Assembly: GCF_001975705.1 (NCBI RefSeq)
Contig: NZ_CP015094.1
Span: forward strand, 1 to 64,000
From: Salipiger abyssi
Lineage (GTDB): Bacteria; Pseudomonadota; Alphaproteobacteria; Rhodobacterales; Rhodobacteraceae
Direction: 5' to 3'
DNA: 64,000 nucleotides
The translations under genes were made by a program, and so were the position numbers. Below are positions 1,188 through 52,609 of this stretch, piece after piece. Below the pieces are notes generated by a model that was given only the letters and a program-made list of their open reading frames with translations, was not told the DNA's origin and did not search any database. Numbering within the stretch: position 1 is the first letter of the stretch; every line of letters begins with the position of its first letter.

Positions 1188-1250
1188 GCATTGCGAGAGA
1201 GAAAGCCCGACATCTGGCGGCAGAAAATTCAAGAGTTGGAGGGCGGACCC

Positions 1251-2486
1251 ATTACACAGGCCCCCGTGTCCACCGCAGCACCCGCAGCACAACCTGCCAA
1301 CAAACCCGCGACCCTGGCGGGACAGATTCCGAAAAACGCCAGAAAGGCGCGGCCACAGAAACGCCATTACGGCGTGCTCGCCAGTTTCGTGCTGGTTGTC
1401 GTGTTGCCGCTGACCCTGGCGATCTTCTATCTGTTTGCCATCGCCGAGGATCAATATGCCACCAGCTTCGGCTTTGCCGTGCGCTCGGAGGAAACCACGC
1501 TGGCCAATTCGCTGCTGGGCGGGCTGAGCAGCCTGTCGGGCGGAAGCAGCTCATCCGACAGCGATATCCTCTACGAATTCATCCAGAGCCGCACCCTGGT
1601 CGAAAAAGTGGATGAGCGGCTGGATCTCACCAGCATCTTTTCGCGCCCGGAATACGACCCGTATTTCTCCTACGATCCGGAGGGGTCGTTCGAGGATCTC
1701 GTCGCGTATTGGCAGCGCATGGTGCATGTCAGCTACGCCTCGAGCGGCACCGGCCTGCTCGAAGTCACGATCAAGGCCTTCACCCCCGGGGACGCGCTGG
1801 CCATCGCCGAGGCGATCGTCTCGGAATCCACCGTGATGATCAACGAGCTGTCCACCATCGCCCGGGCTGACGCCACGCGCTATGCGCGCGAGGATCTCGA
1901 CCAGGCGGTCACGCAGCTGAAAACCGCCCGCGAGGCCCTGACCCGGTTCCGCTCGGTCAACCGCATCATCGACCCGAGCGCCGATCTCCAGGGCCAGCTC
2001 GGCCTGCTCAACTCGCTGGAGGCGAAACTGGCCGAGGTGATCATCGAGCTGAACGTCCAGCTGGAAACCGCCCGCGAGAACGACCCCCGGGTGGTGCAGC
2101 TGCGCAACCGGATCCCGGTGATCAACAAGCTCATCGAGGAGGAGCGCCGCAAGTTCGGCCTCGGCGGCACCATGGGCGGAGACACTTCCGCCCCGGCAAT
2201 CGAAGGTGCGCGGGACTATTCCACCATCGTGGGCGAGTTCGAACGCCTCACCGTCGATCTGGAATATGCCGAGGAGCGCTATCTCGCGACCCAGGCGGCG
2301 CTGGACGCGGCACAGGCCGAGGCGCAGCGCCAGAGCCGCTATCTGGCCACCTACATGCAGCCGTCCCTGCCCGCCTCCTCGCAATACCCCGAGCGTGGCG
2401 AGCTGTTGCTCATCGCCACGACGATACTGCTGCTGAGCTGGGCGGTCGGCGTGCTGATCTATTACAGCCTCAGGGACCGGCGCTGA
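1251..2486 (+). CDS. Capsule polysaccharide export inner-membrane protein (KpsE-like)
   Basis: Periplasm-spanning chain-length and export co-factor of the polysaccharide co-polymerase type, acting with the KpsM/KpsT exporter. A proline/alanine-rich cytoplasmic N-terminus precedes a first membrane segment (residues about 45-65), a long mostly helical periplasmic region with coiled-coil character, and a second membrane helix near the C-terminus before the final SLRDRR. About 411 residues is typical. The start is unusual: no ATG fits. GGAGGG at 1238-1243 is spaced 7 bp before an ATT codon (1251) that begins I-T-Q-A-P; GTG 1266 and TTG 1236 are alternatives. The next gene follows after 14 bp. Confidence 0.82.
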   Translation: MTQAPVSTAAPAAQPANKPATLAGQIPKNARKARPQKRHYGVLASFVLVVVLPLTLAIFYLFAIAEDQYATSFGFAVRSEETTLANSLLGGLSSLSGGSSSSDSDILYEFIQSRTLVEKVDERLDLTSIFSRPEYDPYFSYDPEGSFEDLVAYWQRMVHVSYASSGTGLLEVTIKAFTPGDALAIAEAIVSESTVMINELSTIARADATRYAREDLDQAVTQLKTAREALTRFRSVNRIIDPSADLQGQLGLLNSLEAKLAEVIIELNVQLETARENDPRVVQLRNRIPVINKLIEEERRKFGLGGTMGGDTSAPAIEGARDYSTIVGEFERLTVDLEYAEERYLATQAALDAAQAEAQRQSRYLATYMQPSLPASSQYPERGELLLIATTILLLSWAVGVLIYYSLRDRR

Positions 2487-2500: not shown

Positions 2501-3178
2501 ATGATCGAACTGCGCAACCTGACCAAGATCTACCGGTTGAACGGCGTCGCCAAACCCATCGCCCGGGATCTCACCTTCACCTTTCCCCGCGGCGAATGCG
2601 TCGGTCTGATGGGGCCGAACGGGGCCGGCAAATCGACCATGCTGAAACTGATCGCGGGCACGATCCAGCCCGACAGCGGCGAGATCATCCGGCACGGATC
2701 GGTTTCCTGGCCGGTCGGTTTCGCCGGCAGTTTCCACGGAGACATGACCGGGGCGCAGAACGTGAAATTCGTCGCCCGTCTCTATGGCATCGACACCGAC
2801 GAGATGACCGAGTTCGCCCGCGATTTTTCCCAGCTCGGCGCACATTTTTACCTGCCGGTGCGAACCTATTCCTCGGGGATGCGCTCGCGCCTGGCCTTCG
2901 CCATGTCCATGGCCGTCAAGTTCGACACCTATCTGATCGACGAGGTCACCGCAGTGGGCGACGGTGCCTTCAAGGCCAAGAGCGAGGCCATCTTGCTGGA
3001 ACGGCTGGAAACAAGCGGCGCGATTTTCGTCTCGCATTCGCTGCCCCAGATGGAGCGGCTGTGCCAATCGGGAATCGTGCTGCAAAACGGGCGGTTCTTT
3101 TATTACGCGCGCGTCCAGAAGGCCATCGAGCATTACCAGCACACGATGAAGGGCATCCTGCCGCCCTGGATGCGCTGA
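2501..3178 (+). CDS. Polysaccharide ABC exporter, ATP-binding subunit (KpsT-like)
   Basis: ATPase that powers polysaccharide export through the KpsM-like channel. Visible motifs are Walker A GPNGAGKST (residues 38-46), the KpsT/Wzt-type signature SSGMRSR (about 124-130) and Walker B with the catalytic glutamate (TYLIDE, 143-148), followed by the D-loop and a switch histidine (FVSHS). At 225 residues it is a minimal KpsT-type protein without the extra C-terminal glycan-binding domain seen in some Wzt proteins. ATG 2501 has AGGGAC just upstream. It is cotranscribed with the KpsE-like gene and converges on parB across a parS-like palindrome. Confidence 0.92.
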   Translation: MIELRNLTKIYRLNGVAKPIARDLTFTFPRGECVGLMGPNGAGKSTMLKLIAGTIQPDSGEIIRHGSVSWPVGFAGSFHGDMTGAQNVKFVARLYGIDTDEMTEFARDFSQLGAHFYLPVRTYSSGMRSRLAFAMSMAVKFDTYLIDEVTAVGDGAFKAKSEAILLERLETSGAIFVSHSLPQMERLCQSGIVLQNGRFFYYARVQKAIEHYQHTMKGILPPWMR

Positions 3179-8840: not shown

Positions 8841-9713
8841 ATGACGTTTCTCGTCTTCGGAGAGACCGGACAGGTCGGCCGCGAGCTGCGCCGGGCCGCA
8901 GATGCGGCCGGGCAGACGCTCGAAGTGCACGGCCGCGACACGGCGGATTTCACCGACCCTGAGGCCTGCGCGGCCCTCGTCGCCGCCAGCGATGCGCGGG
9001 CGGTGATCAATGCGGTGGCCTATACCGCGGTGGACAAGGCCGAGGAGGACGAGCCGCGCGCGCGGCTGGTCAATGGCGACACCCCCGGCGCCATCGCCCG
9101 CGCGGCGGCGGCCAAGGGCATCCCGCTGGTGCATATCTCCACCGATTACGTTTTCGACGGGACCGGAGAGACCCCCTTCGCGCCGGATCACCCCACCGGT
9201 CCGCTCGGCGCCTATGGCCGGACGAAACGTGCCGGCGAAGAGGCGATCCGCGCCGCCGGCGGGGCACATGCGATCCTGCGCACCTCCTGGGTGGTCTCTG
9301 CCCATGGCCATAATTTCGTGAAGACCATGCTGCGGCTCGGCGCCGAGCGCGACCGGCTCACCATCGTGGCCGATCAGGTGGGCGGGCCGACCTGCGCCGC
9401 CGATATCGCCGCCGCCTGCCTGGAGATCGCCGGGCAGCTCGCGGCCGATCCGGACAAGAGCGGCAGCTATCATTTCTCCGGTGCGCCGGATGTGAGCTGG
9501 GCCGGGTTCGCGCGCGAGATCTTCGCCCTGGCCGGGCTGGATTGCGCGGTGGAGGACATTCCCACCAGCGCCTATCCCACCCCGGCGGCGCGACCGCTGA
9601 ACTCGCGCATGGACAACAGCCTGACCGAGTCCGTTTTCGGCATCGCCCGTCCGGACTGGCGGTCCGGGCTGCGGTCGATCCTCGACGAGCTGGGCGCACT
9701 GAAGACTTCCTGA
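8841..9713 (+). CDS. rmlD: dTDP-4-dehydrorhamnose reductase
   Basis: Last enzyme of the pathway: NAD(P)H-dependent reduction to dTDP-L-rhamnose. The 290-residue product begins [16 protein letters not shown] with the GxxGxxG nucleotide motif, then [23 protein letters not shown] and [12 protein letters not shown] with catalytic Y and [11 protein letters not shown] near the C-terminus is the conserved substrate-binding block. It follows rmlB by 17 bp with a GGGAG ribosome site. Its end is 23 bp from rmlA. Confidence 0.95.
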
Positions 9714-9736
9714 CCGCAACAAAGAAGGACAGACCC

Positions 9737-10612
9737 ATGACCCAACGCAAGGGCATCATTCTGGCGGGCGGCTCGGGCACCCGGCTTTACCCGATCACCA
9801 TCGGCGTCTCGAAGCAGCTGCTGCCGGTCTACGACAAGCCGATGATCTATTATCCGCTGAGCGTGCTGATGCTGGCCGGGATCCGCGAGATTGCGGTGAT
9901 CACCACGCCGCAGGATCAGGAACAGTTCCAGCGCACGCTGGGCGACGGCTCGCAATGGGGGCTGTCGCTGACCTATATCGTGCAGCCCAGCCCCGATGGC
10001 CTGGCCCAGGCCTATCTCCTGGCGGAAGAGTTCCTGGCCGGCGCCCCGAGCGCCATGGTGCTCGGCGACAATATCTTCTTCGGCCACGGCCTGTCGGCGC
10101 TGCTGCGCGATGCCGATGTGCAGGGCGCGGGCGGCACCGTCTTCGGCTACCGGGTCGCCGATCCGGAACGCTACGGTGTGGTGGCCTTCGATGCCGATGG
10201 GCAGGTGACCGAGATCATCGAAAAGCCCGAGGTGCCGCCGTCCTCCTATGCGGTGACGGGGCTGTATTTCCTCGACGGCACGGCGCCGCACCGGGCGCGG
10301 GAGGTCACGCCCTCGGCGCGCGGCGAGCTGGAGATCACCACGCTGCTGGAAATGTATCTGGCCGAGGGCGCACTGACCGTGCAGCAGATGGGCCGCGGCT
10401 ATGCCTGGCTCGACACCGGCACCCATGGCTCGCTGCTCGATGCGGGCAATTTCGTACGCACGCTGGAGCATCGCCAGGGTCTCCAGACCGGCAGCCCCGA
10501 CGAGATCGCCTTCGATCAGGGCTGGATCAGCGCCGCCGCGCTGGAGGAGCGGGCCGCGAAGTTCCGCAAGAACGCCTATGGCGAGTATCTTCTGGGGCTG
10601 CTGAAGGGCTAG
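9737..10612 (+). CDS. rmlA: Glucose-1-phosphate thymidylyltransferase
   Basis: First enzyme of the pathway: couples glucose-1-phosphate with dTTP to give dTDP-glucose. The 291-residue protein carries the nucleotidyltransferase signature [14 protein letters not shown] (residues 8-21), then [26 protein letters not shown] with the metal-binding D, and [22 protein letters not shown] is the usual C-terminal block. ATG 9737 is preceded by AAGGAC; the frame is open further upstream but only as an overlap with rmlD. It is the last gene of the rmlCBDA operon and ends 2 bp from the convergent sulfotransferase-like gene. Confidence 0.96.
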
Positions 10613-10614
10613 GC

Positions 10615-11562
10615 TCAGCCGGGCAGCGGCGGGTAACGCAGGCGCTTGCACAGCTCGGCATAGGCCGGGCTGGTGGCGCTCTGCTCGGCAATCTCATCGG
10701 GGATGTCCCGTGCCGGGCGGGCGGCGATCTCGTCGCTGGAGCGGCCGCTGTCGCCGGACATGTGGATCGCCATGACCAGCGCCGAACTCTGCGCGTCGTA
10801 GCGCAGCTCGAGGCTGCGGCAGATATTTTCCAGCACGGTTTCCGGCGTATCGACGAAATCCTCGTAATAGACGATCGGGCAGGTGGCGTTGTCGTCGAGG
10901 AAAGCGAGGTAGCGCCGGGCATATTCCTCCAGGGTCGCCGGCGCGAACTGGATCCAGCCGGCGGCTTTCAGCGACAGGAACGAGCTCATCGGATGGCGCA
11001 CGCTGATCAGCGGCAGCACGGCATAGTCCCGTGACAGCATCTCCTGCACGGCGGGCCGCGCGCGCCAGTCGGCGGCGGTGCAATAATGCGAATGGGAATG
11101 CTCGCGCAGGATCAGGCGCTGGCCCGCGCGCTTCAGCGCCGCGTGCAGCGGCGCCAGCCCGCCGAGAAAGATCTCGACGGCCAACGCGTCGGAAATCCCC
11201 TGGCGCCCGTAGCGCATCTGCTTGATGAGATCGGTGGGGGCGAATTTCGACGGGGTCGTCATATGGTTCACGCTCAGCGGATCGATCTCGCTGAGCAGCA
11301 CCGCATTGGGCATCGCCGCCAGGCATTTCGAGATGATCGTGCCGCCGGTGCAGGCGAAATGCTTGAGCAACCGGATCGGGGCGGCATTCTGCGCCTCGGT
11401 CTGTGCCTGGAGCTGGTGCAGCTGGTCGAGCAGGCTCTGCAACGGCAGGGCAGGGGCGGTGCCGGTGCCGCGCTCCTGCGGGCCCGCATGGCTGCGGATC
11501 AGCTGCGCCGCCTCGTCTAGCTCCTGGCGGAGCCTGTCATATTGACTGTCGCTCGCGGTCAT
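10615..11562 (-). CDS. Sulfotransferase-like P-loop protein, paralogue 1
   Basis: Probably transfers sulfate from PAPS to a sugar or glycan. An N-terminal helical stretch (1-75, possibly a short coiled coil) precedes HFACTGGTIISKCLAAMP, taken as the 5'-phosphosulfate loop. SVRHPMSSFLSL has the R and S spacing of the 3'-phosphate motif. It shares FACxGGT, LSExxP, the HSHxx block, YEDF and SGDSGR with the protein at 19895-20707, so the two are paralogues. 315 residues from ATG 11562, which overlaps the stop of the preceding coiled-coil gene (ATGA). The fold assignment is a family inference. A much longer upstream open frame is a shadow of the neighbouring gene. Confidence 0.68.
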   Translation of the reverse strand: MTASDSQYDRLRQELDEAAQLIRSHAGPQERGTGTAPALPLQSLLDQLHQLQAQTEAQNAAPIRLLKHFACTGGTIISKCLAAMPNAVLLSEIDPLSVNHMTTPSKFAPTDLIKQMRYGRQGISDALAVEIFLGGLAPLHAALKRAGQRLILREHSHSHYCTAADWRARPAVQEMLSRDYAVLPLISVRHPMSSFLSLKAAGWIQFAPATLEEYARRYLAFLDDNATCPIVYYEDFVDTPETVLENICRSLELRYDAQSSALVMAIHMSGDSGRSSDEIAARPARDIPDEIAEQSATSPAYAELCKRLRYPPLPG

Positions 11563-13418
11563 TTCGCCTTTTTCGCCCGTGTCGCGGGTTTGCGCTTGGC
11601 GGCGCTCTTGCGTTTCGGCGCGGTTTTGCGCTCCTCCGGGATCTGCGGCGCGGTGCCGGTCTCTTGCGCGGGCGGCTCCGTGAGCGACAGCGCCTTGAGA
11701 TGCTGCGAGGCGTCTTCGAGCCGTGCGGCGAGCAGGGCGATCAGCCGGTCCTGCTGGGCCTTTTGTTCCTGCAAGGCGGCATGACTTTGCTGCAAGTCGC
11801 GCAGATCGTTGCCGCAGATCGTCTGCATCCGCAGCGCCAGGCTCAGATCGGTCTTGCCCTGACGGTACTGTGCTTCGCGCTGCTGTGCCTGCTTTTCCAG
11901 TGCTGCGATCTTGTCGCCGAGCGTCTGTTCGCGGGTCTCGGCGTCCTTGGCGGCGCGGCTGGCCTCGTCTTCGATCTCCTTGATGCGCTTGGCGCGCCAG
12001 TCCGCGGTGGCGGTCAGGTCCTTGAGGGACTGCTCGCGGTCCGCAAGCGTCTTGGCGGTCTCGGTGGCCTTCTGTTCCAGCTCCTTGATGCGCTTGGCGC
12101 GGGTTTCCGCGGTCTCGGTGAGCGTCCGGTGCTCGGCTTCGAGCGTGTCGAGACGTTTCTGCCGGTCGCTGGCGGCGGCCTCGAGCTCGGCGATCCTCTT
12201 GGTGCGGGTCTCGGCCGTCTGGGTCAGCTCGTCGATCTGTGCCGTGAGCGCGGTCTCGCGGGTTTCGGTCTCCGCGGCGGCGGTGACGGCGGCCGCCTCG
12301 AGCTCGGCGATCCGGGTGGCGCGGGCTTCCGCATCCCCGGTCAGCTCGTCGATCCGCGCCGCGAGTGCGGCCTCGCGGCCCTCGGCCTCCTTGGCCGTCC
12401 GGGCAGCGTCGTCCTCGAGCTCCTTGATGCGATTGGAACGCCAGTCCGCGGTGGCGGTCAGATCCTTGAGGGCCTGTTCGCGATCCGCAAGTGTCTGGGC
12501 GGTCTCGGTGGCGCCAGCTTCCAGCTCTTTGATGCGTTTGGCGCGCGCGTCCGCGGTGGCGGTCAGATCCCTGAGGGATGTTTCCAGCGTATCGATGCGG
12601 GTTTTGGCCTCCTTGGCCGCCCGGGCGGCGTCTTCTTCGAGTTCCTTGATGCGCTTGGCGCGCCAGTCCGCGGTTGCGGTCAGATCCTTGAGGGCGGTTT
12701 CCAGCGTGTCGACATCTTTGTCGCGTTTCGCGGCGGCGGCCTCGAGCGCCGCCACATGCTCCCGCTGCTCCGCGAGCTGCTGTTCCAGGGCGGCGGCGGC
12801 ACGCGCCTGACGGTCGATCCCGAAGCGCCGGACCGGCCAGTCCGGATCGGACAGATCCGTTTCCAGAACGGTGAACCCCTGGCCGGTCAGCTGCTCGCTC
12901 AGCGCGGCCATGGTCTGACCATCGGCAAACAGCGCCTCCTGGCTGGTGCGGATGTCGATCCGGGAGAAGCCCGCCAGAAGATCCAGCGCCTGCAACGCGG
13001 CGAGAAACCCGGCATCGGCGCCCGGGGCATCGAGAACCAGCCGGCGCGGCTCGGGCAGGGGGGCCAGGCTGTCTATCAGGCTCTGCGCCGTCATCGCCGG
13101 CACCGAGGGGCGGCGCAGGATGCGGAAGCCGGGATACAGCTCTTGCAGGCCGGTCGGGTCGGCGGTGCTGGACAGGGCGGGGATATTGAAGACCCGGAGA
13201 TCGGCCTCTCCGTCCTCCGCGGCCAGGGCGGCGTGCAGGATCCGGATATGCGCCGCATCGCCGGTCTGCCGCTCGAGATCCCGCACCCGCGCCGGATCGG
13301 CCTCGACGATGGCGATCTGCGTGTCCGTCCGGGCCTTGCAATCGGCCAGGTCCAGGAGCGGGCCGGAGCCCAGATGCAGGATGCTCCCGAAAGGAGCGTC
13401 GTCCGGAGAAACGGCCAC
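11559..13418 (-). CDS. Methyltransferase-like domain fused to a long coiled coil
   Basis: A 619-residue protein with two parts. Residues about 1-215 look like a Rossmann-type methyltransferase of FkbM flavour (ILHLGSGPLLDLA; IAIVEADPARV; LVLDAPGADAGFLAAL), although the glycine motif is weak. Residues about 225-560 are an uninterrupted coiled coil built of near-repeats of LKDLTATADWRAKRIKELE and relatives. The tail is strongly basic (lysine/arginine/alanine). Start: GTG 13418, with AAGGAA 10 bp upstream and only 4 bp after the preceding gene. The plan recalls WbdD, in which a coiled coil sets O-antigen chain length; that is an analogy, and activity is unproven. Confidence 0.6.
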   Translation of the reverse strand: MAVSPDDAPFGSILHLGSGPLLDLADCKARTDTQIAIVEADPARVRDLERQTGDAAHIRILHAALAAEDGEADLRVFNIPALSSTADPTGLQELYPGFRILRRPSVPAMTAQSLIDSLAPLPEPRRLVLDAPGADAGFLAALQALDLLAGFSRIDIRTSQEALFADGQTMAALSEQLTGQGFTVLETDLSDPDWPVRRFGIDRQARAAAALEQQLAEQREHVAALEAAAAKRDKDVDTLETALKDLTATADWRAKRIKELEEDAARAAKEAKTRIDTLETSLRDLTATADARAKRIKELEAGATETAQTLADREQALKDLTATADWRSNRIKELEDDAARTAKEAEGREAALAARIDELTGDAEARATRIAELEAAAVTAAAETETRETALTAQIDELTQTAETRTKRIAELEAAASDRQKRLDTLEAEHRTLTETAETRAKRIKELEQKATETAKTLADREQSLKDLTATADWRAKRIKEIEDEASRAAKDAETREQTLGDKIAALEKQAQQREAQYRQGKTDLSLALRMQTICGNDLRDLQQSHAALQEQKAQQDRLIALLAARLEDASQHLKALSLTEPPAQETGTAPQIPEERKTAPKRKSAAKRKPATRAKKAK

Positions 13419-13422
13419 GGGA

Positions 13423-15108
13423 TCAGTGTTCCTTGTGTTTGGTGCGGCCCAGCAGAGTGTTGGCGGCACGCAGCGGTTCCGTGATCTTCCAGGACCGCGA
13501 GGCGAGCAGCTTGCCATATTCCTTCGAGAGATCCTCGAGGCTCTGGCGCAGCGCCAGTTCGCGCTGCTCGGCCTGTTTCAGGATCCCGTCCCAATGGTCG
13601 CGGGCGCTGTCCAGCTCTTTTGCAAGCGCGGCGGCCTGCGCGGCATGATGGGCGTTTTGCGCGGTGAGCGATGCCAGCGCCGATTCCAGCTCCGCGACGG
13701 TCTGCCGGGCGGTCTCGGCTTCGCTCTGTGCGTTCTGGATCCTGCGCACCATCTCGTCGGACTGTACCTGACGCTGTTGGGCGCCGTCCTGCCGCAGTTT
13801 CGCCAGTTCGGCAGACAGCTCGGTGAGCTCGGTCTCCTGCCGGGCAACGGTCTGCCGCGCGGCGTGCAGTTTCCGGGTCATGTCGTCGGCCATGTCGCGA
13901 CGCTGCCGGTCGCCGCTCTCGCGCAGGGCGGCGCGCTCCGCCGTCAGCCCGGCGATGTCCTCCGCCCGGTCGCGCAGCTGCTGCTCCTTTGCCTCGGTTT
14001 CGCGTTGCAGCTCGGCGATATGACCGAGCAGCAGGTCGCGCTCGGCGCTCAGTTGCGCCTGGCTGCGCTCCTGTTGGGCGAGGGTTTCGGCAAAGCGTGT
14101 CTCTGCCTTGGCGAGGGTCTTTTTCCAGGTCTCCACCGACCCGTTGGCCTCCAGCAACTGGCGGCGCAGGGTGTCGGCGGTGCCGGACTGGCCGAGCACC
14201 TCGGCATGCAGTTCGGCGATATGACCGAGCAGCAGGTCGCGCTCGGCGCTCAGCTGCGCCTGGCTGCGCTCCTGTTGGGCGAGGGCTTCGGCAAAGCGCG
14301 TCTCTGCCTTGGCGAGGGTCTTTTTCCAGGTCTCCACCGACCCGTTGGCCTCCAGCAGCTGGCGGCGCAGGGTGTCGGCGGTGCCGGACTGGCCGAGCAC
14401 CTCGTCATGCAGCTCTGCGACATGGCCGAGCAGCAGGTCGCGTTCGGCGGCGATCGCATCCGCCCGGCCCTCCGCATCGGCCTTGCCGGCCTGAAGCATG
14501 GCGGTCGTCTCGTTCAGCGCCTGCCAGGCCCGGACCGCGGCGTCGACCTCCGCAAGCGAGGGCACGCGCTGTGGCGCGGGCAGGCTGCTGGCCTCCAGAT
14601 CCATGTCCAGCGCGGCGGCCTCCGGCGCGGCGGCGAGGGCCTGGTCCGCCAGCAGGGCGAAGATGTCGGAGGCGGCCTCCGGCATCTCCGCCGGTTCGGT
14701 CAGCGCCTCGGCTCCGAGCAGCGCGGTGAGCCGGGTCAGCGCCCCGGCCTCGCTCCGCAGCAGCGCCGCCTCCTCGAGCAGCAGCACGTTGCGGCGCGCC
14801 TGGCGCCAGGTTGCGAGGATCTGGGAGCAGGCCTCCTGCCATTCCGCCAGACCGTCGCTCGCGGAGCGCCCGTCCCTCAGGGCGGATTGCAGGAAATGCC
14901 GCGCGTTGCGGTGCAGGATGACCAGCGGCTCGCCTGCCGCCAGCGCCTCGGCGCAGCGCTCCGGCGAAAAGGCGAAGACATCGAGCGCCCGGTCGGCGCT
15001 CTGCCGGAACCGGGCCTGGCAGCGCTCTCGGTCTATGCCGGCCATGTACGCGATCCGGAGGGGCTTGGTGCCGGGCCGGGACGGCGCCTGATCGGACGGT
15101 GGGCACAT
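13423..15108 (-). CDS. Coiled-coil protein with internal tandem repeat, unknown function
   Basis: Not assigned to a known family. Of 561 residues, about 1-185 form a globular region (LRIAYMAGIDRERCQARFRQSA; PLVILHRNARHFLQ) rich in alanine and leucine. Residues about 215-545 are coiled coil. Within it a 67-residue unit beginning AERDLLLGH is repeated twice in full and started a third time. The start ATG 15108 has AGAGAG nearby. It is followed after 4 bp by the methyltransferase/coiled-coil gene, and the two probably work together in the polysaccharide operon. Weak resemblance of the C-terminal end (SRSWKITEPLRA) to glycosyltransferase-linked tails in surface-polysaccharide proteins is noted. 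Confidence 0.65.
   Translation of the reverse strand: MCPPSDQAPSRPGTKPLRIAYMAGIDRERCQARFRQSADRALDVFAFSPERCAEALAAGEPLVILHRNARHFLQSALRDGRSASDGLAEWQEACSQILATWRQARRNVLLLEEAALLRSEAGALTRLTALLGAEALTEPAEMPEAASDIFALLADQALAAAPEAAALDMDLEASSLPAPQRVPSLAEVDAAVRAWQALNETTAMLQAGKADAEGRADAIAAERDLLLGHVAELHDEVLGQSGTADTLRRQLLEANGSVETWKKTLAKAETRFAEALAQQERSQAQLSAERDLLLGHIAELHAEVLGQSGTADTLRRQLLEANGSVETWKKTLAKAETRFAETLAQQERSQAQLSAERDLLLGHIAELQRETEAKEQQLRDRAEDIAGLTAERAALRESGDRQRRDMADDMTRKLHAARQTVARQETELTELSAELAKLRQDGAQQRQVQSDEMVRRIQNAQSEAETARQTVAELESALASLTAQNAHHAAQAAALAKELDSARDHWDGILKQAEQRELALRQSLEDLSKEYGKLLASRSWKITEPLRAANTLLGRTKHKEH
14004..14449. repeat. 201-bp in-frame tandem repeat inside the coiled-coil gene
   Basis: Unit 1 at 14020-14220 and unit 2 at 14221-14421 differ at only about nine positions; a partial third unit starts at 14422. 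The period is 201 bp = 67 codons, so gain or loss of a unit keeps the frame. A coiled coil with heptad register tolerates such length changes. The high identity points to a recent duplication or ongoing homogenisation. Confidence 0.88.
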
Positions 15109-15215: not shown

Positions 15216-16262
15216 TCAGGGCAGGGGGGCGGGTTTCTCCTCGACGATCGCCGTCAGCTCGTCGGACAACCGCTCGTAAAATCCGATGCGTTCGTCGAGG
15301 AAATCGTCGAATTTGCGGAAGCGCTCGTACAGCCCGGCCTGCGCCTCGGCATAGGCCTCGAACGTGGCGGCGGTCGGCTTGAATCCGGTGATCTTCTTGG
15401 CCGCATCGGCGGGGGAGAGCTCGAAGAGGTTGAGGCAGGAGCCCGCCGGCGCGAATTCGTGGATGCGATGCGAGGCCGGGGCCCAGATCAGCGGCAGGCC
15501 GCGACAGGCATAGGCGTCGAAGATCTTTTCCGAGATGTAGTTGCGCTGGCTGGTGTTCTCGATGGCCGAGACGATATAGCTCTTGCCCTGAAGCGTCAGC
15601 AGCTTGTCCAGATGCCAGTCGGGCAGCTCCTGGCGGGTGACCTTGGCGCCCCAGCCCTGACCGACCCGCATGGTGCCCTTGTCGGGCATCGCCTTGGCGA
15701 CGTCGGTGCGGTAGACCGAGAGGCCGTAGGTCTCGATATCGGGGTGGGCGATGCTGTATTTCTTCACCAGATCGCGGTTCTCGGCAAAGAACGCATAGCG
15801 GATGCCGGCCTGTTTCCAGATCTCGGCGAAGGCCCCGGGTGCCATGGCGGCATTGCGGCCGAACTCATAGGCGTAGCGCAGGTAGTATTCGTCTTCGGTG
15901 GTCAGGAAATAGGGCAGCGAGCGGAACTCGTAGACCTTCGAGGTGTGGTGGTTGATGGCGGAGAACGCAAAGGCGTGGTCGCCGGTCTTGCGGATATTGT
16001 GCCGCTTGCGGAAATCGCCGCTGTTGGTCGTGTCCCAGAGCGGCTCCTCGGAGACCACCACCAGCCGCAGGGCGGGGTTGGCCTTGACCAGCCTGGCCAG
16101 CTCCTCGGCGTTCTCGTCGATGTTCAGCACATAGCCGAACAGGATGACATCCGCCTTTTCGGGCGTGTCGACATAGTCGAAGCGCTGCCGGAACAGGCGT
16201 TTGTAGGGCTCGTAGGCGAACGGCGTGCGATGCGCATGCCGGCCCATAATGTGAATGCGCAT
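15216..16262 (-). CDS. GT10-like (fucosyltransferase-type) glycosyltransferase, copy 1
   Basis: Probably transfers L-fucose from GDP-fucose, whose biosynthesis genes lie close by. The 348-residue protein has the hallmark C-terminal block of family GT10 at residues about 232-250 (SAIENTSQRNYISEKIFDAY), followed by RGLPLIWAP. The N-terminal half (LVVVSEEPLWDT; INHHTSKVYEF) is shared with the second copy at 27709-28749. ATG 16262 lies 4 bp after the stop of the exostosin-like gene, so both are in one operon. It is followed by a 107-bp gap before the coiled-coil gene, in which no further gene was seen. Confidence 0.78.
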   Translation of the reverse strand: MRIHIMGRHAHRTPFAYEPYKRLFRQRFDYVDTPEKADVILFGYVLNIDENAEELARLVKANPALRLVVVSEEPLWDTTNSGDFRKRHNIRKTGDHAFAFSAINHHTSKVYEFRSLPYFLTTEDEYYLRYAYEFGRNAAMAPGAFAEIWKQAGIRYAFFAENRDLVKKYSIAHPDIETYGLSVYRTDVAKAMPDKGTMRVGQGWGAKVTRQELPDWHLDKLLTLQGKSYIVSAIENTSQRNYISEKIFDAYACRGLPLIWAPASHRIHEFAPAGSCLNLFELSPADAAKKITGFKPTAATFEAYAEAQAGLYERFRKFDDFLDERIGFYERLSDELTAIVEEKPAPLP

Positions 16263-16266: not shown

Positions 16267-18276
16267 TTAGGCCTGGTCCCAATCGGTCTTCAGATTGCGT
16301 GTCTCCAGCGCGCGCGCAAAGATATCCTTCTGCGCCGCGCTGGCCTTTCCCAGCAGGTCCTGGATCAGCGGCTTTTCCTTTTTGAGCCGGGCCTTGGCCT
16401 TTTCCGGCGTCAGCAGGATATCCGTGGTGATGCTGTTGAGGCTCAGCGGTCCGGAGGCCGGCGCGGGAGCCGCGGCGGCTGCGGCGCGCGCGGGGCGCTG
16501 CGCCGCGTCCTGGGATCTTTCGAGGATCAGCTTCTGGATGTCGTGAACGAAATTCTCGATTCCGTAGAGTTTCCAGATCTGCGCCATGGCATGGCGCTTG
16601 CGCTGCAGCATCTGGGGATCGGCATGGATCTTCTTGAGGACCCCGGGCAGCTTGAGAATGCTGGCCTTGTCCTCCTTGCAGAACACCGCCGCCTGCTCCC
16701 AGAGCGCGGGATTGCCCGGCAGCGCGAGATTGTCGGCGAGGATCACCGGAATCGAGCCCAGACCGATGGATTCCCAAAGCCGGATCGAGTTCGGCCCGGT
16801 GCCGGAGGGGCAGAGCGAGAAGACGCTTTCGCGCAGGATCTGCTTGAAATTGTCCGAGGCTTTGTTGTCGACCAGCGCGTCGGGTTTGTCGGCCAGCCCG
16901 CGCACCTGATAATCGTAGACCACCTTGTTGTAATGCCAGGTGTCGTTGCCGACGATCAGGCCGGTATTGGTCTTGGTCAGCTCGTCGATGATGATGTTGC
17001 GCGACTGGGTCAGGTAATACTGGTTCGCCTTGGCGCCGACGAAGGAATAGAGGTGCTTCTTGCGCAGCGGCGGCTCGTTCCAGATGTCCTTGGCCTGCAC
17101 CGGGTAGAGCGGGAAAGGATGCAGCGCGATGCCCTTGTGTTCGGGCAGGGCCGGCTGGGTCTTGACCGCGTGGGACCAGAAGATGTCGGTGATCCCCATC
17201 TCGTCGAAGAGGCTCTGAAAACGCAGCATGTGGATGTGCTGGCAGGTGGTCACGACGGTCTCGGCCGCTGCGAGCCGCGGCTTGAAGGAGAGCAGCTTCT
17301 GCTTGAGGAAGGCGGTCTTCTCCGGGTTCTTCTTGTTGTGCAGCAGGTTGTCGATCAGCGTCGCCCAGGGAAAGGCGAAATACAGCACCCGGCCATCGGC
17401 GTGGCGGGCGTCCAGCCGTTCGCTGAGCATGTTGAAGGCATGCTGCTCGGTGATCGCGGGGAACTGCCAGTTGTGGTCGTAGGCGACGATCAGATCGCTT
17501 TTCTTGCGCTTGGGCTGGCCGAGACCCTGCTTCTCCTTGACGATGATCGTGTCGTTGACCTTGATCCGCTCCACCGGCTCGGGCTTCAGCGTCCAGACGT
17601 CGAACACCATCTTGGACGGTTCGGTGATCGTCTCGGAGGGGTACACCCAGGCGATGCCGCCGAGGATACGCTTGTCGACATGGTTGTCATAGGCGCGCAG
17701 CTGGGTCTCGTGCAGGTGATAGGTGCGCACGAACTTGCAGGGGTTGAAGATGTCGTAGCCATGCACCGAAAACACATAGCCGATCTTGTTGTCGCAGCGC
17801 GGCACGCCCAGCGGGATCGTCATCTTCTGCTTGATCTGGTCGGGCACGGGCACGGTGCCGTCCACCACCCACACGTCCTGCGACCATTGCGGGTTCTTGT
17901 GCATGGTGATCTTGTCGCCTTCGATCTCGTAGCGGCTGATCGCGGCGAGGGCATGGCCGGAGGCGTCGAAGACCTTGTGCAGCTCGGTCACGGTCTTGTC
18001 GAGATAGATGTCGGAATTGGCCAGTACCGAGAGCGCGCCGGTGCTGTGGCGCTCGGTCAGGTCCAGCCAGTCGCGATAGGTCGGGCGCGCCGGGATCGGC
18101 AGGACGGTGATCTTGTCGGATTTGATCGGCGGTTCGTGGCCGTCATCGACCATCAGGAAGATGCGGTCCACTTCCTTGGTTTCGACGTTCTTCTTCAGGC
18201 AGAGATCGAGCTCTTTCTGGCGCTCGTGATCGTCGGAAAGATAGTAGGGCGTATAAAGATGAATGGCTTTTTTCAT
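16267..18276 (-). CDS. Two-domain glycosyltransferase with exostosin-like (GT47) C-terminal half
   Basis: 669 residues from ATG 18276 (M-K-K-A-I-H-L-Y-T-P-Y-Y). The N-terminal part, about 1-260, looks like a small glycosyltransferase-A-type domain with NSDIYLD near residue 88. The C-terminal part, about 300-600, ends in the exostosin signature FSLCPSGTGPNSIRLWE (about 486-502) followed by GLGSIPVIL. Exostosins add glucuronic acid, GlcNAc or related sugars, which fits the UDP-glucose dehydrogenase gene in the window. A proline/alanine-rich linker and basic tail close the protein. First gene of the minus-strand operon; the upstream region faces gmd. The donor sugar cannot be read from sequence. 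Confidence 0.78.
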   Translation of the reverse strand: MKKAIHLYTPYYLSDDHERQKELDLCLKKNVETKEVDRIFLMVDDGHEPPIKSDKITVLPIPARPTYRDWLDLTERHSTGALSVLANSDIYLDKTVTELHKVFDASGHALAAISRYEIEGDKITMHKNPQWSQDVWVVDGTVPVPDQIKQKMTIPLGVPRCDNKIGYVFSVHGYDIFNPCKFVRTYHLHETQLRAYDNHVDKRILGGIAWVYPSETITEPSKMVFDVWTLKPEPVERIKVNDTIIVKEKQGLGQPKRKKSDLIVAYDHNWQFPAITEQHAFNMLSERLDARHADGRVLYFAFPWATLIDNLLHNKKNPEKTAFLKQKLLSFKPRLAAAETVVTTCQHIHMLRFQSLFDEMGITDIFWSHAVKTQPALPEHKGIALHPFPLYPVQAKDIWNEPPLRKKHLYSFVGAKANQYYLTQSRNIIIDELTKTNTGLIVGNDTWHYNKVVYDYQVRGLADKPDALVDNKASDNFKQILRESVFSLCPSGTGPNSIRLWESIGLGSIPVILADNLALPGNPALWEQAAVFCKEDKASILKLPGVLKKIHADPQMLQRKRHAMAQIWKLYGIENFVHDIQKLILERSQDAAQRPARAAAAAAPAPASGPLSLNSITTDILLTPEKAKARLKKEKPLIQDLLGKASAAQKDIFARALETRNLKTDWDQA

Positions 18277-18760
18277 GACGGTTTTGGGCCTGTCCGAATG
18301 CTGCGCGATAAACTTGCTGACGGTTCCAGAGCCGGGGTATAAACGGTCGAGGGGGAAAACCTCAACCAATTGCAAAATAAAGGAAAACAAGACCGAACTA
18401 AGGCACCCGCCTGAGGGCCAGAAGAGGAACCGAAAGGAAACACCCGGTCGTTATACATCGAATCAATGACGCCGCAACGGGTTTCTGCGACGCGGCTAGC
18501 GGGCCGGCAGAAGGGCGCTCTGCGGCCCCCGGGATGCCGGGTTTCGGGGCGCTTGCCGGCCCCCGCCGGGGCGCCCGCCCCGCAACAACCCGCCTGCGAA
18601 ACGACAGCCTTGCTTGTCTTGTGCGTTTTGCTTTTGTAGTCATCGCTGCGCGTATGTGGCGAAGTTTCGTTTCATTGCCGCCGAATATCTAAAAACAAGC
18701 GTCGCGATGACGTGCACGCGCCGCGCGCGCTGGCCGGCGACAGGAATTGATGGGCATAAG
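18277..18760. promoter_or_regulatory. 484-bp divergent intergenic region between exostosin-like gene and gmd
   Basis: No gene is supported. The part near the exostosin-like start is AT-richer (AATTGCAAAATAAAGGAAAAC around 18368-18388). The middle holds very GC-rich inverted repeats (GGCCGGCAGA...TCTGCGGCC at about 18502-18527 and CCCCGCCGGGGCGCCC nearby). The gmd-proximal part has T-rich tracts. It must carry promoters for both polysaccharide units. No -10/-35 pair stood out clearly enough to place. Confidence 0.5.
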
Positions 18761-19882
18761 ATGACCAAAAAAGCATTGATCACCGGGGTGACCGGGCAGG
18801 ACGGTTCCTATCTCGCAGAGTTCCTGCTGGAAAAAGGCTATGAGGTGCACGGCATCAAGCGCCGGGCCTCGCTGTTCAACACCGGCCGGGTGGACCACAT
18901 CTATCAGGATCCGCATGTCACCAACCAGAATTTCAAGCTGCATTACGGCGATCTGACCGACACCTCCAACCTGACGCGCATCATGCGCGAGGTGGAGCCC
19001 GACGAGGTCTACAACCTCGGGGCCCAGAGCCATGTGGCGGTCAGCTTCGAGGCGCCGGAATACACCGCCGACGTGGACGGCATCGGCACGCTGCGCCTGC
19101 TGGAGTCGATCCGCTTCCTCGGCCTCGAGAAAAAGACCCGGTTCTACCAGGCCTCGACCTCCGAACTCTTCGGGCTCGTTCAGGAGATCCCGCAGAAGGA
19201 AACCACCCCCTTCTACCCGCGCTCGCCCTACGCGGTGGCCAAGATGTACGCCTACTGGATCACGGTGAACTACCGTGAGAGCTATGGCATCTATGCCTGC
19301 AACGGCATCCTCTTCAACCACGAGTCCCCGCGCCGTGGCGAGACCTTCGTGACCCGCAAGATCACCCGCGGTCTCAGCAATATCGCCATGGGTCTCGAAC
19401 CCTGCCTGTTCATGGGCAATATCGACTCCCTGCGCGACTGGGGCCACGCCAAGGATTACGTCCGCATGCAGTGGATGATGCTGCAACAGGACGAGGCGGT
19501 GGATTTCGTCATCGGCACCGGCGTGCAGTATTCCGTGCGCGAGTTCATCGACTGGACCGCGAAGGAGCTGGGCATCGAGCTGGAATTCTCCGGCGAGGGT
19601 GTGGACGAGATCGCCACGGTGAAATCGGTGGACAACGCGATCGCGCCGGCGGTGAAGCCGGGCGATGTGATCATGCGCATCGATCCGCGCTATTTCCGCC
19701 CCGCCGAGGTGGAAACGCTGCTGGGCGATCCGGCCAAGGCCAAGGAAAAGCTCGGCTGGGTGCCCGAGATCACCGCCCAGGAAATGTGCGCCGAGATGGT
19801 GGCGGAGGATCTCAAGACCGCCAAACGCCACGCGCTGCTGAAAGAGAGCGGTTTCGAGCTGCCGATCTCGGTCGAGCACTAG
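18761..19882 (+). CDS. gmd: GDP-mannose 4,6-dehydratase
   Basis: First committed step of GDP-L-fucose synthesis: GDP-mannose to GDP-4-keto-6-deoxymannose, cytoplasmic, NADP-dependent. The 373-residue product begins [21 protein letters not shown] with the nucleotide motif, then [39 protein letters not shown] (catalytic S/T-E) and [15 protein letters not shown] (catalytic Y and K). [16 protein letters not shown] and the WGHAKDYV block are diagnostic for Gmd. ATG 18761 is chosen because the conserved sequence starts there; the upstream frame is junk. First gene of the fucose run. Confidence 0.97.
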
Positions 19883-19894: not shown

Positions 19895-20707
19895 ATGGAA
19901 GTCCATCACTCTCCGGTACGCACGATCCATCATTTCGCCTGCTCGGGCGGAACGGTGGTCTCCAAATGTATCGCGGTCTGCGGCGACAGCTTTTTCCTGT
20001 CCGAGGTCAACCCGCTGGCGCCGTATAACGATATCAAGTTCGCGCCGCTGGACCTGCTCAGCCAGCTTCAGGCGCAGTACCGGAACATGACCAAGCAGTA
20101 CCGGATGGAGTTCTTCGGCGACCAGATGCGTCTGCTGGCCAGGATCTCCGATCAGGCGAAGCGGCCGATCTGCCTCCGGGATCATACCCATAGCAGCTTC
20201 TTCCGCCCCGGCGGAGTGCATGAATCCGAGTTGCTGGAGGCGCTGAAGGTGCTGGGCTACGACACCCTGAGCGTTGCCACGGTGCGGCATCCCGTCGATG
20301 CCTTTGCGGCGATGCTCAAGAACAAATGGGCCGGGGGGATACAGAATTCCTTCGAGATCTATTGCACGAAGCTGATGGCCTTTCTCGATTACTGCGAGCG
20401 CCGCGAGGTCGGCCTCTGGCGATACGAGGATTTCTGCCTGAAACCGGCGGAAACCCTCGGTCAGATCTGCGAGAGGCTGGCCCTGCCGTTCAACGAGAAT
20501 TTCCTGGAGGACTTCCAGAACATCAAGCTGTCGGGGGATTCCGGTCGCAGGAGCGCAGACATCCATCTCAGGACGCGGCGCAGCATCGCCCCCGACCTCG
20601 CCGCCGAGGCGGCCGATTCCGAGCTTTATCACACAGTCTGTTCGAGACTGGGATACACAGCTGCCGTCGACGAGTATCCGTTGCAGCGGGATTTCCAGTC
20701 GCATTGA
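19895..20707 (+). CDS. Sulfotransferase-like P-loop protein, paralogue 2
   Basis: Probable PAPS-dependent sulfotransferase acting on the polysaccharide. 270 residues; [19 protein letters not shown] (about 12-29) is the likely 5'-phosphosulfate loop, and [12 protein letters not shown] carries the R of the 3'-phosphate motif. It shares LSExx[15 protein letters not shown] and LSGDSGRRS with the protein at 10615-11562 but lacks that protein's N-terminal helical extension. Starts 12 bp after gmd, before fcl, so it is embedded in the GDP-fucose genes. This suggests that it modifies a fucosylated product. Substrate and activity are inferred. Confidence 0.68.
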
Positions 20708-20756
20708 ACGCAATATCGCGGCCCGCCGGGCCGCATTCATGAAACGGGCCATTGCA

Positions 20757-21722
20757 ATGAAAATATATATCGCAGGACATCGGGGCATGGTCGGCGGCGC
20801 GATCCTGCGCCGTCTTCAGGCCCGTAAGGAGGCCGGTGAGGACCTGACCCTGATCACCCGCACCCATGCGGAGCTCGATCTGACCAGCCAGGACGCGGTG
20901 CGCGGCTTCATGGAGGCCGAAACGCCCGATGTGGTGATCCTCGCCGCCGCCAAGGTGGGCGGCATCCATGCCAACAACACCTATCCGGCGGAATTCATCT
21001 ACGAAAACCTGATGATCGAGTGCAACGTGATCCATCAGGCCTTCGCCGCCGGGGTCACGCGGCTCCTGCAGCTCGGCTCCTCCTGCATCTATCCCAAGGC
21101 GGTGCCGCAGCCGATGAAGGAAGATGCGCTGCTCACCGGCACGCTGGAACCCACCAACGAGCCCTATGCCATCGCCAAGATCGCCGGCATCAAGCTCTGC
21201 GAGAGCTACAACCGGCAATACGGGGTCGATTATCGCTCGGTCATGCCGACCAACCTCTACGGGCCGGGCGACAACTTCCACCCCGAGAACAGCCATGTGC
21301 TGCCCGCGCTGATCCGCCGTTTCCACGAGGCGGCGCAGAACGGCACCGAAGAGGTGGTGATCTGGGGCTCGGGCAAGCCGATGCGCGAATTCCTGCATGT
21401 CGATGACATGGCCGAGGCCTCGCTCTTCGTGCTCGATCTCGACAAGGCGACCTACGAGGCCAATACCGAGCCGATGCTGAGCCATATCAATGTCGGCACC
21501 GGCACCGATATCTCGATCATGGATCTGGCGCGGATGGTGGCGAAGGTCACGGGCTATACGGGGCGCATCGCCAACGATCCGAGCAAGCCCGACGGCACCA
21601 TGCGCAAGCTGATGGATGTCACCCGGCTGGCGGATATGGGCTGGAGCGCCCGCATCCCGCTCGAGGAGGGCGTTCGGGAAACCTATGAATGGTTCAAAGA
21701 GGCCGAAGGGCTGCGGCTTTGA
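20757..21722 (+). CDS. fcl: GDP-L-fucose synthase
   Basis: Second step of GDP-L-fucose synthesis: a bifunctional 3,5-epimerase and NADPH-dependent 4-reductase. The 321-residue protein starts [17 protein letters not shown] (Rossmann motif), followed by [36 protein letters not shown] (catalytic Y and K) and [31 protein letters not shown] is the usual late block. ATG 20757 fits the family start; an in-frame ATG at 20739 would add six residues. Its 3' end overlaps the start of the next gene by about 34 bp. Confidence 0.95.
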
Positions 21723-30191: not shown

Positions 30192-33100
30192 TCAGGCCGC
30201 CAGCAGGTCGTAGCTCACCCCGCCGATCAGCAGATCGATATGATCCTGCGCGCCGCCATCCACCAGCGCCCAGAGGATCTGCCCGGTGGGGCGGTAGACG
30301 ACAAAGGCTTCCTCGACCCCGGCGGTGCCGGCATTGGCGGTCTCGGTGAAATTGACCTGGAAGTCGTCGACCGTCGCGGTTCCGCCGAAATAGAGCGTGT
30401 CGCCCTCGGCATCGGAGAAGTCCTGGATCCAGTCGGAGCCATGCCCTTCCACGCCGAGGTGATAGAACCGGTCCGCCCCGGCGCCGCCATTCACCCGGTC
30501 ATGGCCGAAGCCGCCATTGATGAAATCGTTGCCGTTGCCGCCAAAGATCGCATCCGACCAGGTCTGGCCGGTCAGCTGGTCGTCGCCATCGCCACCCAGC
30601 ACGTTGTCGACCCCGTAACCGCCGAGGATGGTGTCGTTGCCGGCGTCGCCGCGAAGCTCGTCATTGCCGTAACCGCCGTCGATCGAGTCGTTGCCGGCAC
30701 CGCCATAGACCACGTCGCGCAGATCGGCCTCGGAGGCGCCGCCGAAGATGAAATCGTCGCCATCGCCGCCATTGAGCGTATCGCTGCCATCGCCGCCGCT
30801 GAGCGTGTCGTTGTCCGCCAGGCCGATCAGCGTGTCGTTGCCGGCCAGCCCGCTCAGGCTGTCGGCCCCGTCCGTGCCTTCGAGACGGTTGTTGCCGGCA
30901 TCGCCGCTGCGCGTCACTCCGGTGCCGCCGCTGGCGGTGATGGTGACTGCGGCGCTGTCGACCCGCTCCACCGTACCGTAGCCGTCGGTATAGACGACGC
31001 GGGCGATGATCGCGCTGCCGAGGTCGTCGGCTCCTACCGTGTAACTCTGCGAGAAGGCCCCGGCGATGCGCGTGCCGTCCTGCCACCATTCGTAATAGAG
31101 CGTGCCCAGCCCGTCCGCATCGGCGATGCTGCCGGTTGCCATAGTCAGGGTCTCGCCCGGGCGTGGCGTGCCGGAGATCACCGGCGCGCCGGTGGGCGCG
31201 CGGTTGCCGCCGCCGGAGGTGACCGCGGCGCTGCTGACCCGTTCGACCGTGCCGCCTGCGTCGGTGTAATAGACACTGACGCTGATCGCGGCGCCGTCAT
31301 CGGCAGCGGTGACCGTATAGGTCTCGCCCCGCTGGCCCATGACAAAGCTGCCGTCGCGGTACCATTCGTAGAAGAACGGCGTGGCAAAGCCGTCGGGATC
31401 GGTGATCGCACCGGTGTCGACCCCCAGCACCGCACCACGGGTCGCGGTGCCGGTGATAACGGGTGCGCCGCTGACCGGATCGTTGACATTCTCCACCGCG
31501 GCGGTGCCGGCACTGGTCAGGCTCTCGGCGGCGCCGCCGCCATCGGTATAGCCGACCCGGACCGACAGGCTCCGCCCGACATCGGCCTGAGCCAGCGTAT
31601 AGCTCGCACCGGTGGCGCCGGAAATCGCCGCCCCGTCGCGCAGCCACTGGTAGCTGAAGCTGCCCAGCCCGTCCTCGTCGGCGATCGCCGAGGTATCGGC
31701 GGTCAGGGTCTGGCCTTGGGTGGCAGTGCCGGTGACCACCGGCCGGCCCGTCGGCGCATCGTTAGAATTGGCCACTGTCGCGGTGCTGGCGCTGGTCAGG
31801 CTCTCTGCCGTGCCGATGCCGTCGGTATAGCTGACCCGGACGCGGATCATGGCGCCGATATCGGCGGTGACCAGCGTGTAGGTCGCACCGGTGGCGCCCT
31901 GGATGGCGCTGCCGTCGCGCAGCCATTGATAGCTGAAGCCGCCGAGCCCGTCCGCATCGGCGATGCTGGAGGTGTTCACCCCGAGCGTCTGCCCCTGCGC
32001 CGCGGTGCCCGAGATCACCGGCGTGCCGGTGGGCAGGTCGTTGCCGCTGATCACCGGGGCGGTGACGTCACTGGTCACCGTTTCCTCGGTGTCCCCACCA
32101 TCGGTATAGCGGATCCGGACGCTGATCTCGGCACCGATATCGGCGACCCCGAGATGATAGGAAACCGCGGTGGCGCCCTGGATGGCAGTGCCGTCGCGCA
32201 ACCACTGATAGCTCAGCGGCCCGACCCCGTCGCCATCGGAGAGCGTGCTGGTATCGGCGGTCAGCGTGGCGCCCTGCTCCACATCGCCTGTGATCACCAC
32301 CTCGCCGCCGGGGGCGTCATTGGTATTGGTCACTGTCGCGGTGCTGGCGCTGGTCAGGCCCTCTGCCGTGCCGTGCCCGTCGGTATAGCGGATCCGGACG
32401 CTGATCTGGCTGCCGATATCGTCGGCCACCAGCGTATAGGAGGCCCCGGTGGCGCCGGAAATCCCGGCCCCGTCGCGCAGCCACTGATAGCTCAGCACCC
32501 CGAGCCCGTCGCCATCGGCCAGGGTCGTTGTGTTGGCGCTGAGGGTTTCGCCCTCGGCCGCGGTGCCATCGACCGTCACCCCGCCGGTGGGGCTGTCATT
32601 GACATTGCGTACCGCGCTGGTGGCGGGGCTGGTCACGCTTTCCGCAGTGCCCTGGCCATCGGTATAGCTCACCCGCAGGGTGATCCGCGCACCGATATCG
32701 GCATCGGTCAGCGTATACGTGGTGCCGTTGGCCCCCTCGATCTCCGCCCCGTCGCGCAGCCACTGGTAGCGCAGCGCGCCGAGCCCGTCGCCGTCGCTCA
32801 GGCTGCCGGTCATCGCGGTCAGGACCTGCCCCTCGGTGGAGGTGCCGGAGATCGAGACCCCGCCTGCCGGGGCGGCGTTGACGTTTTCCACCGCGGCGGT
32901 GGCCGGCGCCGACACGGTTTCGGTCGTGCCGAAGCCGTCGGTATAGCGCACCCGGACCCCGATCGCGTGGCCGATATCGGCGGCGGTCAGCTGATAGCTG
33001 GCGGTGGTGGCGCCGGAGACCGCCACGCCGTCGCGGGTCCAGACATAGGTCAGGTCGCCGAGCCCGTCGATATCGGCCAGGGTGCCGGTATCGGCGGTCA

Positions 33101-50132: not shown

Positions 50133-50245
50133 GCCGGCCCCGGCGGAATGTCCCACCATTGTCTAAAAGCCGCGACATTCCGCGCCCGCACGGTAACCAC
50201 CTGTCAACCACCCGCCCCGATCCTGCGGCGGAACGAGGAGGGCTC

Positions 50246-52503: not shown

Positions 52504-52609
52504 TCCAGCACATGTTTCCAATCCGAGGATTGCCGGCGCGCTGACGCCGGCCGTCCCGGGAAACTGATTTCGACAAGACCCATACAGAAAACCAGAGGGG
52601 GACCCGACC

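Follow-up and report, generated by a model that had tools for sequence, protein, structure and literature searches.

The question raised by this locus is what two adjacent genes for long coiled-coil proteins are doing inside a run of polysaccharide genes in Salipiger abyssi. The stretch analysed (the window, positions 1 to 64,000 of contig NZ_CP015094.1, assembly GCF_001975705.1) covers nearly all of a 64,192-base plasmid, contig C6, in a 5.26-Mb genome. An earlier note on this DNA had read the pair as a polysaccharide length ruler resembling WbdD, in which a methyltransferase-bearing coiled coil sets the length of the glycan chain. The analysis presented here points instead to a pseudoenzyme-coiled-coil adaptor module that docks a capsule-modifying sulfotransferase, a reading that we consider probable without regarding it as settled. 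In the window this module would consist of three proteins for polysaccharide sulfation, the first coiled-coil protein (MTCC), its partner and the sulfotransferase ST1, with the following features:

10615..11562, minus strand: sulfotransferase ST1, 315 aa, whose start overlaps the MTCC stop (ATGA)
11559..13418, minus strand: MTCC, 619 aa, GTG start; degenerate methyltransferase-fold head, coiled coil, C-terminal motif and basic tail
12798..13409, minus strand: MTCC head, class I methyltransferase fold, FkbM-related (AlphaFold2 predicted local distance difference test score, pLDDT, 95.3; Foldseek and VIA)
11853..12797, minus strand: MTCC variable coil, about 315 residues, about 47 nm if a single continuous helix
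11664..11852, minus strand: MTCC C-terminal motif (C-motif) of type A, proposed ST1 docking site, consensus DL..ALR.Q.....DL.DL..R...Q..LL..LT.RL..AA
11562..11663, minus strand: MTCC basic tail, net +9 over 34 residues
13423..15108, minus strand: partner coiled coil, 561 aa, open reading frame (ORF)
14584..15066, minus strand: partner head, predicted by structure prediction to have a sulfotransferase fold without the P-loop for 3'-phosphoadenosine 5'-phosphosulfate (PAPS)
13495..14583, minus strand: partner coil, about 363 residues
14006..14449, minus strand: tandem repeat in the partner coil, 201 bp (67 residues), 2.2 copies, 95% matches
13468..13494, minus strand: partner C-terminal SWKITEPLR motif

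The open frames of the pair run from 11559 to 13517 (-) and from 13423 to 15108 (-). The first frame is real, as the earlier note had it; its start has been moved from 13517 to the GTG at 13418, because the ATG at 13517 falls inside the upstream gene. That both adjacent genes encode long coiled coils was borne out by the hydrophobic periodicity, which peaks at 3.52 residues in the MTCC coil and at 3.54 in the partner coil, a value not reached by any of 200 composition shuffles in either case, and by the near absence of proline (none in 347 residues of the MTCC coil, one in 356 of the partner coil). The MTCC coil is built from seven copies of a 35/39-residue unit. Structure prediction of the N-terminal domain, a check that the earlier note had itself proposed, returned a confident class I fold for the methyltransferase-like head, and the basic tail was also found as described, within the last 34 residues of the protein.

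The role of this head as a capping methyltransferase was not supported. The canonical S-adenosylmethionine (SAM) motif I is given as E/DxGxGxG in the available text of PMC11231755. In the window's head this motif is degenerate, with H where D/E is expected, and the acidic residue is present in 0 of 55 heads (first glycine in 51, second in 40) versus 5 of 5 methyltransferases encoded a short way downstream in related loci, as counted by pattern. The PF05050 (FkbM) profile matched 15 of the 55 relative heads weakly, at E 0.01 or better, and the window's own head gave no Pfam match, PF05050 included. No kinase or other catalytic domain was found on MTCC in the Pfam scan. WbdD was unnamed among the 13 PDB-chain matches obtained up to E 10 with a profile of the 55 heads, and its absence from the top-50 fold matches listed for the MTCC head excludes nothing. 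The comparison of the whole MTCC protein with the PDB yielded chance-level matches, and a protein search with head residues 5-215, in which about 8000 candidates were scored, returned the protein itself (P0003) and one distant relative (P0004).

The partner was found to carry a head of its own, which the earlier note had overlooked; its sulfotransferase fold is predicted less firmly than the fold of the MTCC head. Among 32 relatives, the partner heads of two show a P-loop-like pattern; the window's head is not one of the two. The partner profile gave chance-level matches against the PDB, the full-length partner gave no hit in a plasmid tblastn search, and a protein search with residues 10-200 (about 8000 candidates scored) retrieved one near-identical Salipiger abyssi fragment with 98% identity. 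The DNA copies of the 67-residue unit in the coil are 94-95% alike, which indicates a recent change of length. A partner gene, recognised by its SW-T-PLR tail, ends less than 500 bases upstream in 33 of 68 loci. The N-domain profile matches 31 of these partners, which together with the window make up the 32 sequences of alignment A4.

The usual companion of MTCC, likewise missed by the earlier note, is ST1. This protein matched PF13469 with an E value of 1.6e-5, but at 25.7 bits for a cut-off of 27, and its profile matched the CurM sulfotransferase 4gbm (E 1.6e-5). The P-loop-like pattern was present in 80 of 80 ST1 proteins, and the PAPS signature of ST1 looks intact as judged from its sequence. 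The N-terminal extension, approximately residues 1-62, is the proposed docking element.

A survey of gene order was carried out by scanning named genomes with an ST1 alignment, and the best 80 of 144 confirmed relatives were retained. These loci span Rhodobacteraceae, Maricaulis, Oceanicaulis, Thiorhodococcus, Allochromatium, Halochromatium, Rubrivivax, Rhizobium and others. A gene with the MTCC head and/or the C-motif was located directly 5' of ST1 in 76 of the 80 loci, a sample biased by its ST1 selection, the query having been drawn from MTCC neighbours. The 76 comprise 66 loci with a spacing of -20 to 150 bp, one with 164 bp (L149), two with weaker head scores (L107, L131), one interrupted by N (L104) and six partial contigs that start inside the MTCC gene, where the C-motif alone is visible (L093, L095, L098, L118, L126, L147). 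In L128 the ST1 match begins 1.4 kb past MTCC, yet inside a 743-codon frame that starts at the MTCC stop.

Searches were also made from the side of the head, with the window's genome included in each genome count. At E 0.001 the head profile matched 7 of 61 relatives and 78 of 394 family genomes, many of them weakly. The first search of this kind (alignment A1) found 28 places at E 1.5e-27 or better, followed by ST1 in 20, by the type-B family described below in six, by a contig end in one and by none of these in one; it was redone with a head-only alignment (A3) because one row of A1 had contaminated the model with positions from the coil and the C-motif. The head-only profile matched 34 places in 32 of the 394 family genomes at E 1e-20, and at E 1e-10 it matched 29 of 398 genomes of the phylum. 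The 34 places are followed by ST1 (21, including the window, the L054 fusion, L043 with a degenerate fused enzyme, and L176), by the type-B family (six: L052, L053, L055, L064, L065 and L069, with no catalytic domain recognised in L053), by a contig end (L056) or by neither companion (six). Since the head, the C-terminal motif and the gene order recur in other genera, the pair does not consist of spurious high-GC ORFs. The same gene set as in the window was also observed in L081 (JAFKDC010000029.1, 53,827 bases).

In addition to gene order, one gene fusion and the matching ends of the two proteins make ST1 appear to be the enzyme that is tied to the coil. In L054 (4090-5985, +) head and ST1 are fused in a single 632-residue open frame without C-motif and, by eye, without coil, this being 1 of 113 head-bearing ORFs with duplicates between loci counted. 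The C-motif was detected in 69 of 69 scanned proteins, with scores from 24.5 bits up and with a model built from 38 of them. The ST1 extension, searched with a profile built from 14 ST1 of MTCC-neighbour loci, reached at least 10 bits in all 53 loci whose type-A tail is strong and in 4 of the 15 whose tail is weak, an agreement that is partly built in because both models were made from members of the strong group. On the head tree (best tree) the tail type changes six times and the enzyme type five times.

A second tail, type B (AEGQIALIKDLLL-like), ends MTCC in seven loci (six identified by pattern and L064 by eye), all without ST1. In six of the seven the downstream protein has a different common N-domain, joined to a sulfotransferase (ST-B) in three cases, to an FkbM-type methyltransferase in two and to nothing recognised in one. 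The enzymes of L012 and L009 consist of an ST1-like extension followed by a degenerate sulfotransferase and then a methyltransferase-like domain. For L012, PF13578 scored 21.8 bits, under its cut-off, and the extension matched at E 6e-4; the L009 extension was seen in the family alignment, and the degenerate sulfotransferase parts of both enzymes as well as the L009 methyltransferase were judged by eye.

MTCC would accordingly be described as an adaptor in which a pseudo-methyltransferase head is followed by a coiled-coil spacer and by the C-motif, where ST1 would dock physically through its N-terminal extension, and the partner would add another coiled coil, headed by a pseudo-sulfotransferase. 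The module is likely to operate next to the glycosyltransferases, on the inner face of the cytoplasmic membrane. The substrate of ST1 there would be a capsule that contains fucose and rhamnose and leaves the cell through KpsMTE; the heads may have ligands of their own, and the length of the coil may limit the site or the timing of sulfate addition.

Several observations weigh against the adaptor reading. Three ST1 loci (L097, L102, L143) have no MTCC within the stretch read, and six of the head-selected places (L067, L074, L075, L076, L077, L177) have neither companion, although five of the six matched less strongly (E 1e-29 to 1e-21) and may represent a sister family. In L176 ST1 adjoins MTCC, yet neither the type-A motif nor the extension was recognised. 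To the bias of the ST1-selected sample and the shared origin of the tail and extension models must be added that the weak-tail group of 15 contains one clade of 7, and that phylogenetically independent pairs for the tail/enzyme pairing number one on well-supported branches and six on the best tree. The partner head gave no Foldseek match below 0.001, the 3'-phosphate R..S(+8) pattern was found in 63 of the 80 ST1, and KpsE-like genes in only 8 of the 80 loci. The second glycine of motif I is kept in 40 of the 55 MTCC heads, which may therefore still bind SAM.

Two observations on related loci were made in passing. Proteins of 745-858 codons in L074, L075 and L076 match the head profile a second time, less strongly, and their basic tails have an ending similar to KYKWRKVRKIFK; they have no ST1 nearby and may constitute a sister family. 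The L143 protein (9197-10765, +) is an ST1-type sulfotransferase with a type-B N-domain and without an MTCC gene upstream within the stretch read.

The length of the coil bears directly on the idea of a ruler. Between head and C-motif it ranged from 0 to 639 residues (median 172) in 69 proteins, so that a long coil is no constant of the family; coils of 20 residues or fewer were found in 2 of the 69, and coils of 0-2 residues occur. Similar heads may carry unlike coils, as in pairs with 95% identity (639 versus 492 residues), 76% (69 versus 341) and 72% (346 versus 85), and such near relatives provide a natural experiment on coil length versus polysaccharide size or sulfation. The tail has a net charge of +4 or more in 45 of the 69 proteins and a negative one in 11. 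The coil lengths of MTCC and partner correlated when the window clade was counted (Spearman 0.39, p 0.03; Pearson 0.64, p 7e-5; n 32), but the correlation disappeared on its removal (Spearman 0.21, p 0.29, n 28). A double ruler with matched MTCC and partner coils was dropped as a candidate, its correlation depending on that clade.

Different explanations may be given for these data. A head that methylates the chain end, with the coil setting its length as in WbdD, agrees with the methyltransferase fold, the coil, the basic tail and the ABC exporter, and coil-bearing putative methyltransferases of variable length are described in E. coli group 3 kps clusters in the available text of PMC13171606. 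It is nevertheless very unlikely, considering that the acidic motif I residue is lost from every head and kept in all the downstream methyltransferases, that neither a Pfam kinase nor, in the whole genome, a match to the cap-reading Wzt carbohydrate-binding domain (Wzt_C, PF14524; positive in 2 of 14 control genomes with the same search) was found, and that the usual neighbour is a sulfotransferase. Of the ruler interpretation of the earlier note, the fold, coil, tail, operon and exporter are supported and the capping role of the head is not; control of length may still apply. A structural or polar organiser of the cell, unrelated to glycan chemistry, would have long coils with basic tails, which we take as typical of many structural proteins; this explanation is highly improbable given the sugar and sulfotransferase genes around the pair, in the annotated loci and in many others, and the fusion of head and ST1.

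The coils might also do nothing but cluster enzymes, multimerising the sulfotransferase and the glycosyltransferases and setting their local concentration, with a meaningless length. This is a real possibility, although a minority one: it would accommodate the whole range of coil lengths and a recent tandem duplication in the partner coil, which fits slippage without selection, but both ends of the coil are conserved and coil-less forms are rare. It is somewhat unlikely that ST1, held by MTCC, adds sulfate to the non-reducing end, with coil length fixing the chain length at which capping occurs. Conserved ends with a free coil length, as in the 95% identical heads, speak for such a cap, as does the interchange of sulfo- and methyltransferases behind the same docking parts, which would be expected of caps. 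Nearly or completely coil-less forms, including the fusion, speak against it, together with a KpsT-like ATPase that has no cap-reading domain and the lack of a correlation between MTCC and partner coils once the window clade is removed. Sulfation is equally possible at internal positions: the exopolysaccharide of Salipiger mucosus contains fucose and 0.9% w/w sulfate with a mass of 250 kDa, according to the available text of PMC2953402, from which about 23 sulfates per chain can be calculated if it is assumed to be the product of such a module. Capping and clustering are both narrower versions of the adaptor reading, for which reason their odds overlap with it. We regard as unlikely the more elaborate proposal of a two-part ruler, in which a dead methyltransferase-coil adaptor would dock an exchangeable capping sulfo- or methyltransferase and the gain or loss of coil repeats would tune polysaccharide length.

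The chemistry of the module is mostly sulfation, and to our knowledge no ruler is known for sulfation chemistry. Among the open-licence papers listed in the literature searches, none describes this module in its title or at the start of its abstract.

Comparison with known systems was based on the portions of the cited papers that were available. Like WbdD of E. coli O9a and K. pneumoniae O3, MTCC has an N-terminal methyltransferase-fold head, a long coil, a putative C-terminal recruitment region and an ABC-exported glycan (PMC3482155, PMC11231755). Unlike WbdD, its head is degenerate, it has no kinase that could be found, and the modifying enzyme, for which docking is proposed, has a gene of its own; the Wzt carbohydrate-binding domain of the WbdD system found no match in the genome of the window. 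In terminated O-antigen systems the cap is recognised by this domain, and the coil carries the terminating enzyme at its distal end (PMC11231755; for WbdD, PMC3482155), and the KpsMT-type capsule of H. influenzae b is described as having no terminating residue (PMC11231755). The K. pneumoniae O4 and O7 terminators (ORF7-O4, GT137; ORF6-O7) combine a coil ruler with varied terminating chemistry, as may be the case here, but with the enzyme fused to the coil, unlike MTCC, and words in 'sulfat' are absent from the main text of PMC11231755. The putative methyltransferases with coils in E. coli group 3 kps clusters, compared by description, are alike in annotation, variable coil and KpsMT export (PMC13171606), so that the combination of KpsMT with a coil-bearing methyltransferase has a precedent; methyltransferase and sulfotransferase genes both appear among the modification genes of new E. 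coli group 3 clusters (PMC10433991). FkbM methyltransferases (PF05050) share their fold with the MTCC heads, some of which the profile matches weakly; the heads differ by the missing acidic residue. The module would work like the WbdD kind, of which it is at most a candidate member. The published coiled-coil rulers, as far as these sources describe them, keep the terminating enzyme on the coil protein, whereas here it appears to be docked and exchangeable.

The polysaccharide operon and the ABC exporter on the same replicon, both reported in the earlier note, were recovered with the following genes:

16267..18390, minus strand: exostosin GT47-domain glycosyltransferase, PF03016, same gene run
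15216..16262, minus strand: glycosyltransferase family 10 (GT10, fucosyltransferase-like), PF00852, same gene run
18614..19882, plus strand: gmd, GDP-mannose 4,6-dehydratase, TIGR01472 from residue 52, true start later in the ORF
19895..20707, plus strand: ST2, second sulfotransferase, alignable with ST1, PF13469 18.1 bits, under cut-off
20739..21722, plus strand: fcl, GDP-L-fucose synthase, NF047922
327..1454, minus strand: KpsM-like ABC-2 membrane protein, PF01061, NF050053 81 bits, under its cut-off of 300, start uncertain
1245..2486, plus strand: KpsE-like export protein, TIGR01010 192 bits, under its cut-off of 437.5, start uncertain
2501..3178, plus strand: KpsT-like ATPase, 225 aa, PF00005 at residues 22-151, without C-terminal carbohydrate-binding domain

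The minus-strand run reads GT47, GT10, partner, MTCC and ST1, with junctions of 4 bases or an overlap, except for about 107 bases ahead of the partner. Around it are rfbABCD, gmd, fcl, the second sulfotransferase, ManC-like and UDP-glucose-dehydrogenase-like genes and the KpsM/E/T-like genes, the latter all on the plasmid at 327-3178. ST2 sits between gmd and fcl and has no ST1-type N-terminal extension. Capsule_synth matches (PF05159, KpsC/KpsS-type) were located on the large contig C5 at 750011-754197, together with Poly_export (PF02563) near 750-754 kb, which makes a KpsMTE route with a chromosomal part plausible; genes resembling the components of KpsMTE group 2/3 capsule export (KpsM, KpsT, KpsE and the KpsC/KpsS types) are all present in the genome. 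Within the sequence stretches examined, gmd was found in 41, fcl in 30 and GT10 in 19 of the 80 ST1-selected loci, and the gene order in L051 is repA, rfbC, rfbB, rfbD, rfbA, GT47, GT10, partner, MTCC, ST1 and gmd. One match comes from a Leisingera sp. M527 plasmid. A plasmid of this strain has been mapped as a biofilm plasmid (PMC10090131), whose identity with the match-bearing one is not implied, and the module is unnamed in the available account of it.

The same plasmid of S. abyssi carries an RTX ORF of 3088 aa with 32 RTX nonapeptide stretches (window 30192-39458, -), which forms a large secreted adhesin-like cluster with further RTX- and NIDO-domain ORFs at 48147-58851. A WbsX-type glycosyltransferase match at 62994-63677 (-) covers profile positions 11-89 of 350, which suggests a truncated gene near the contig end.

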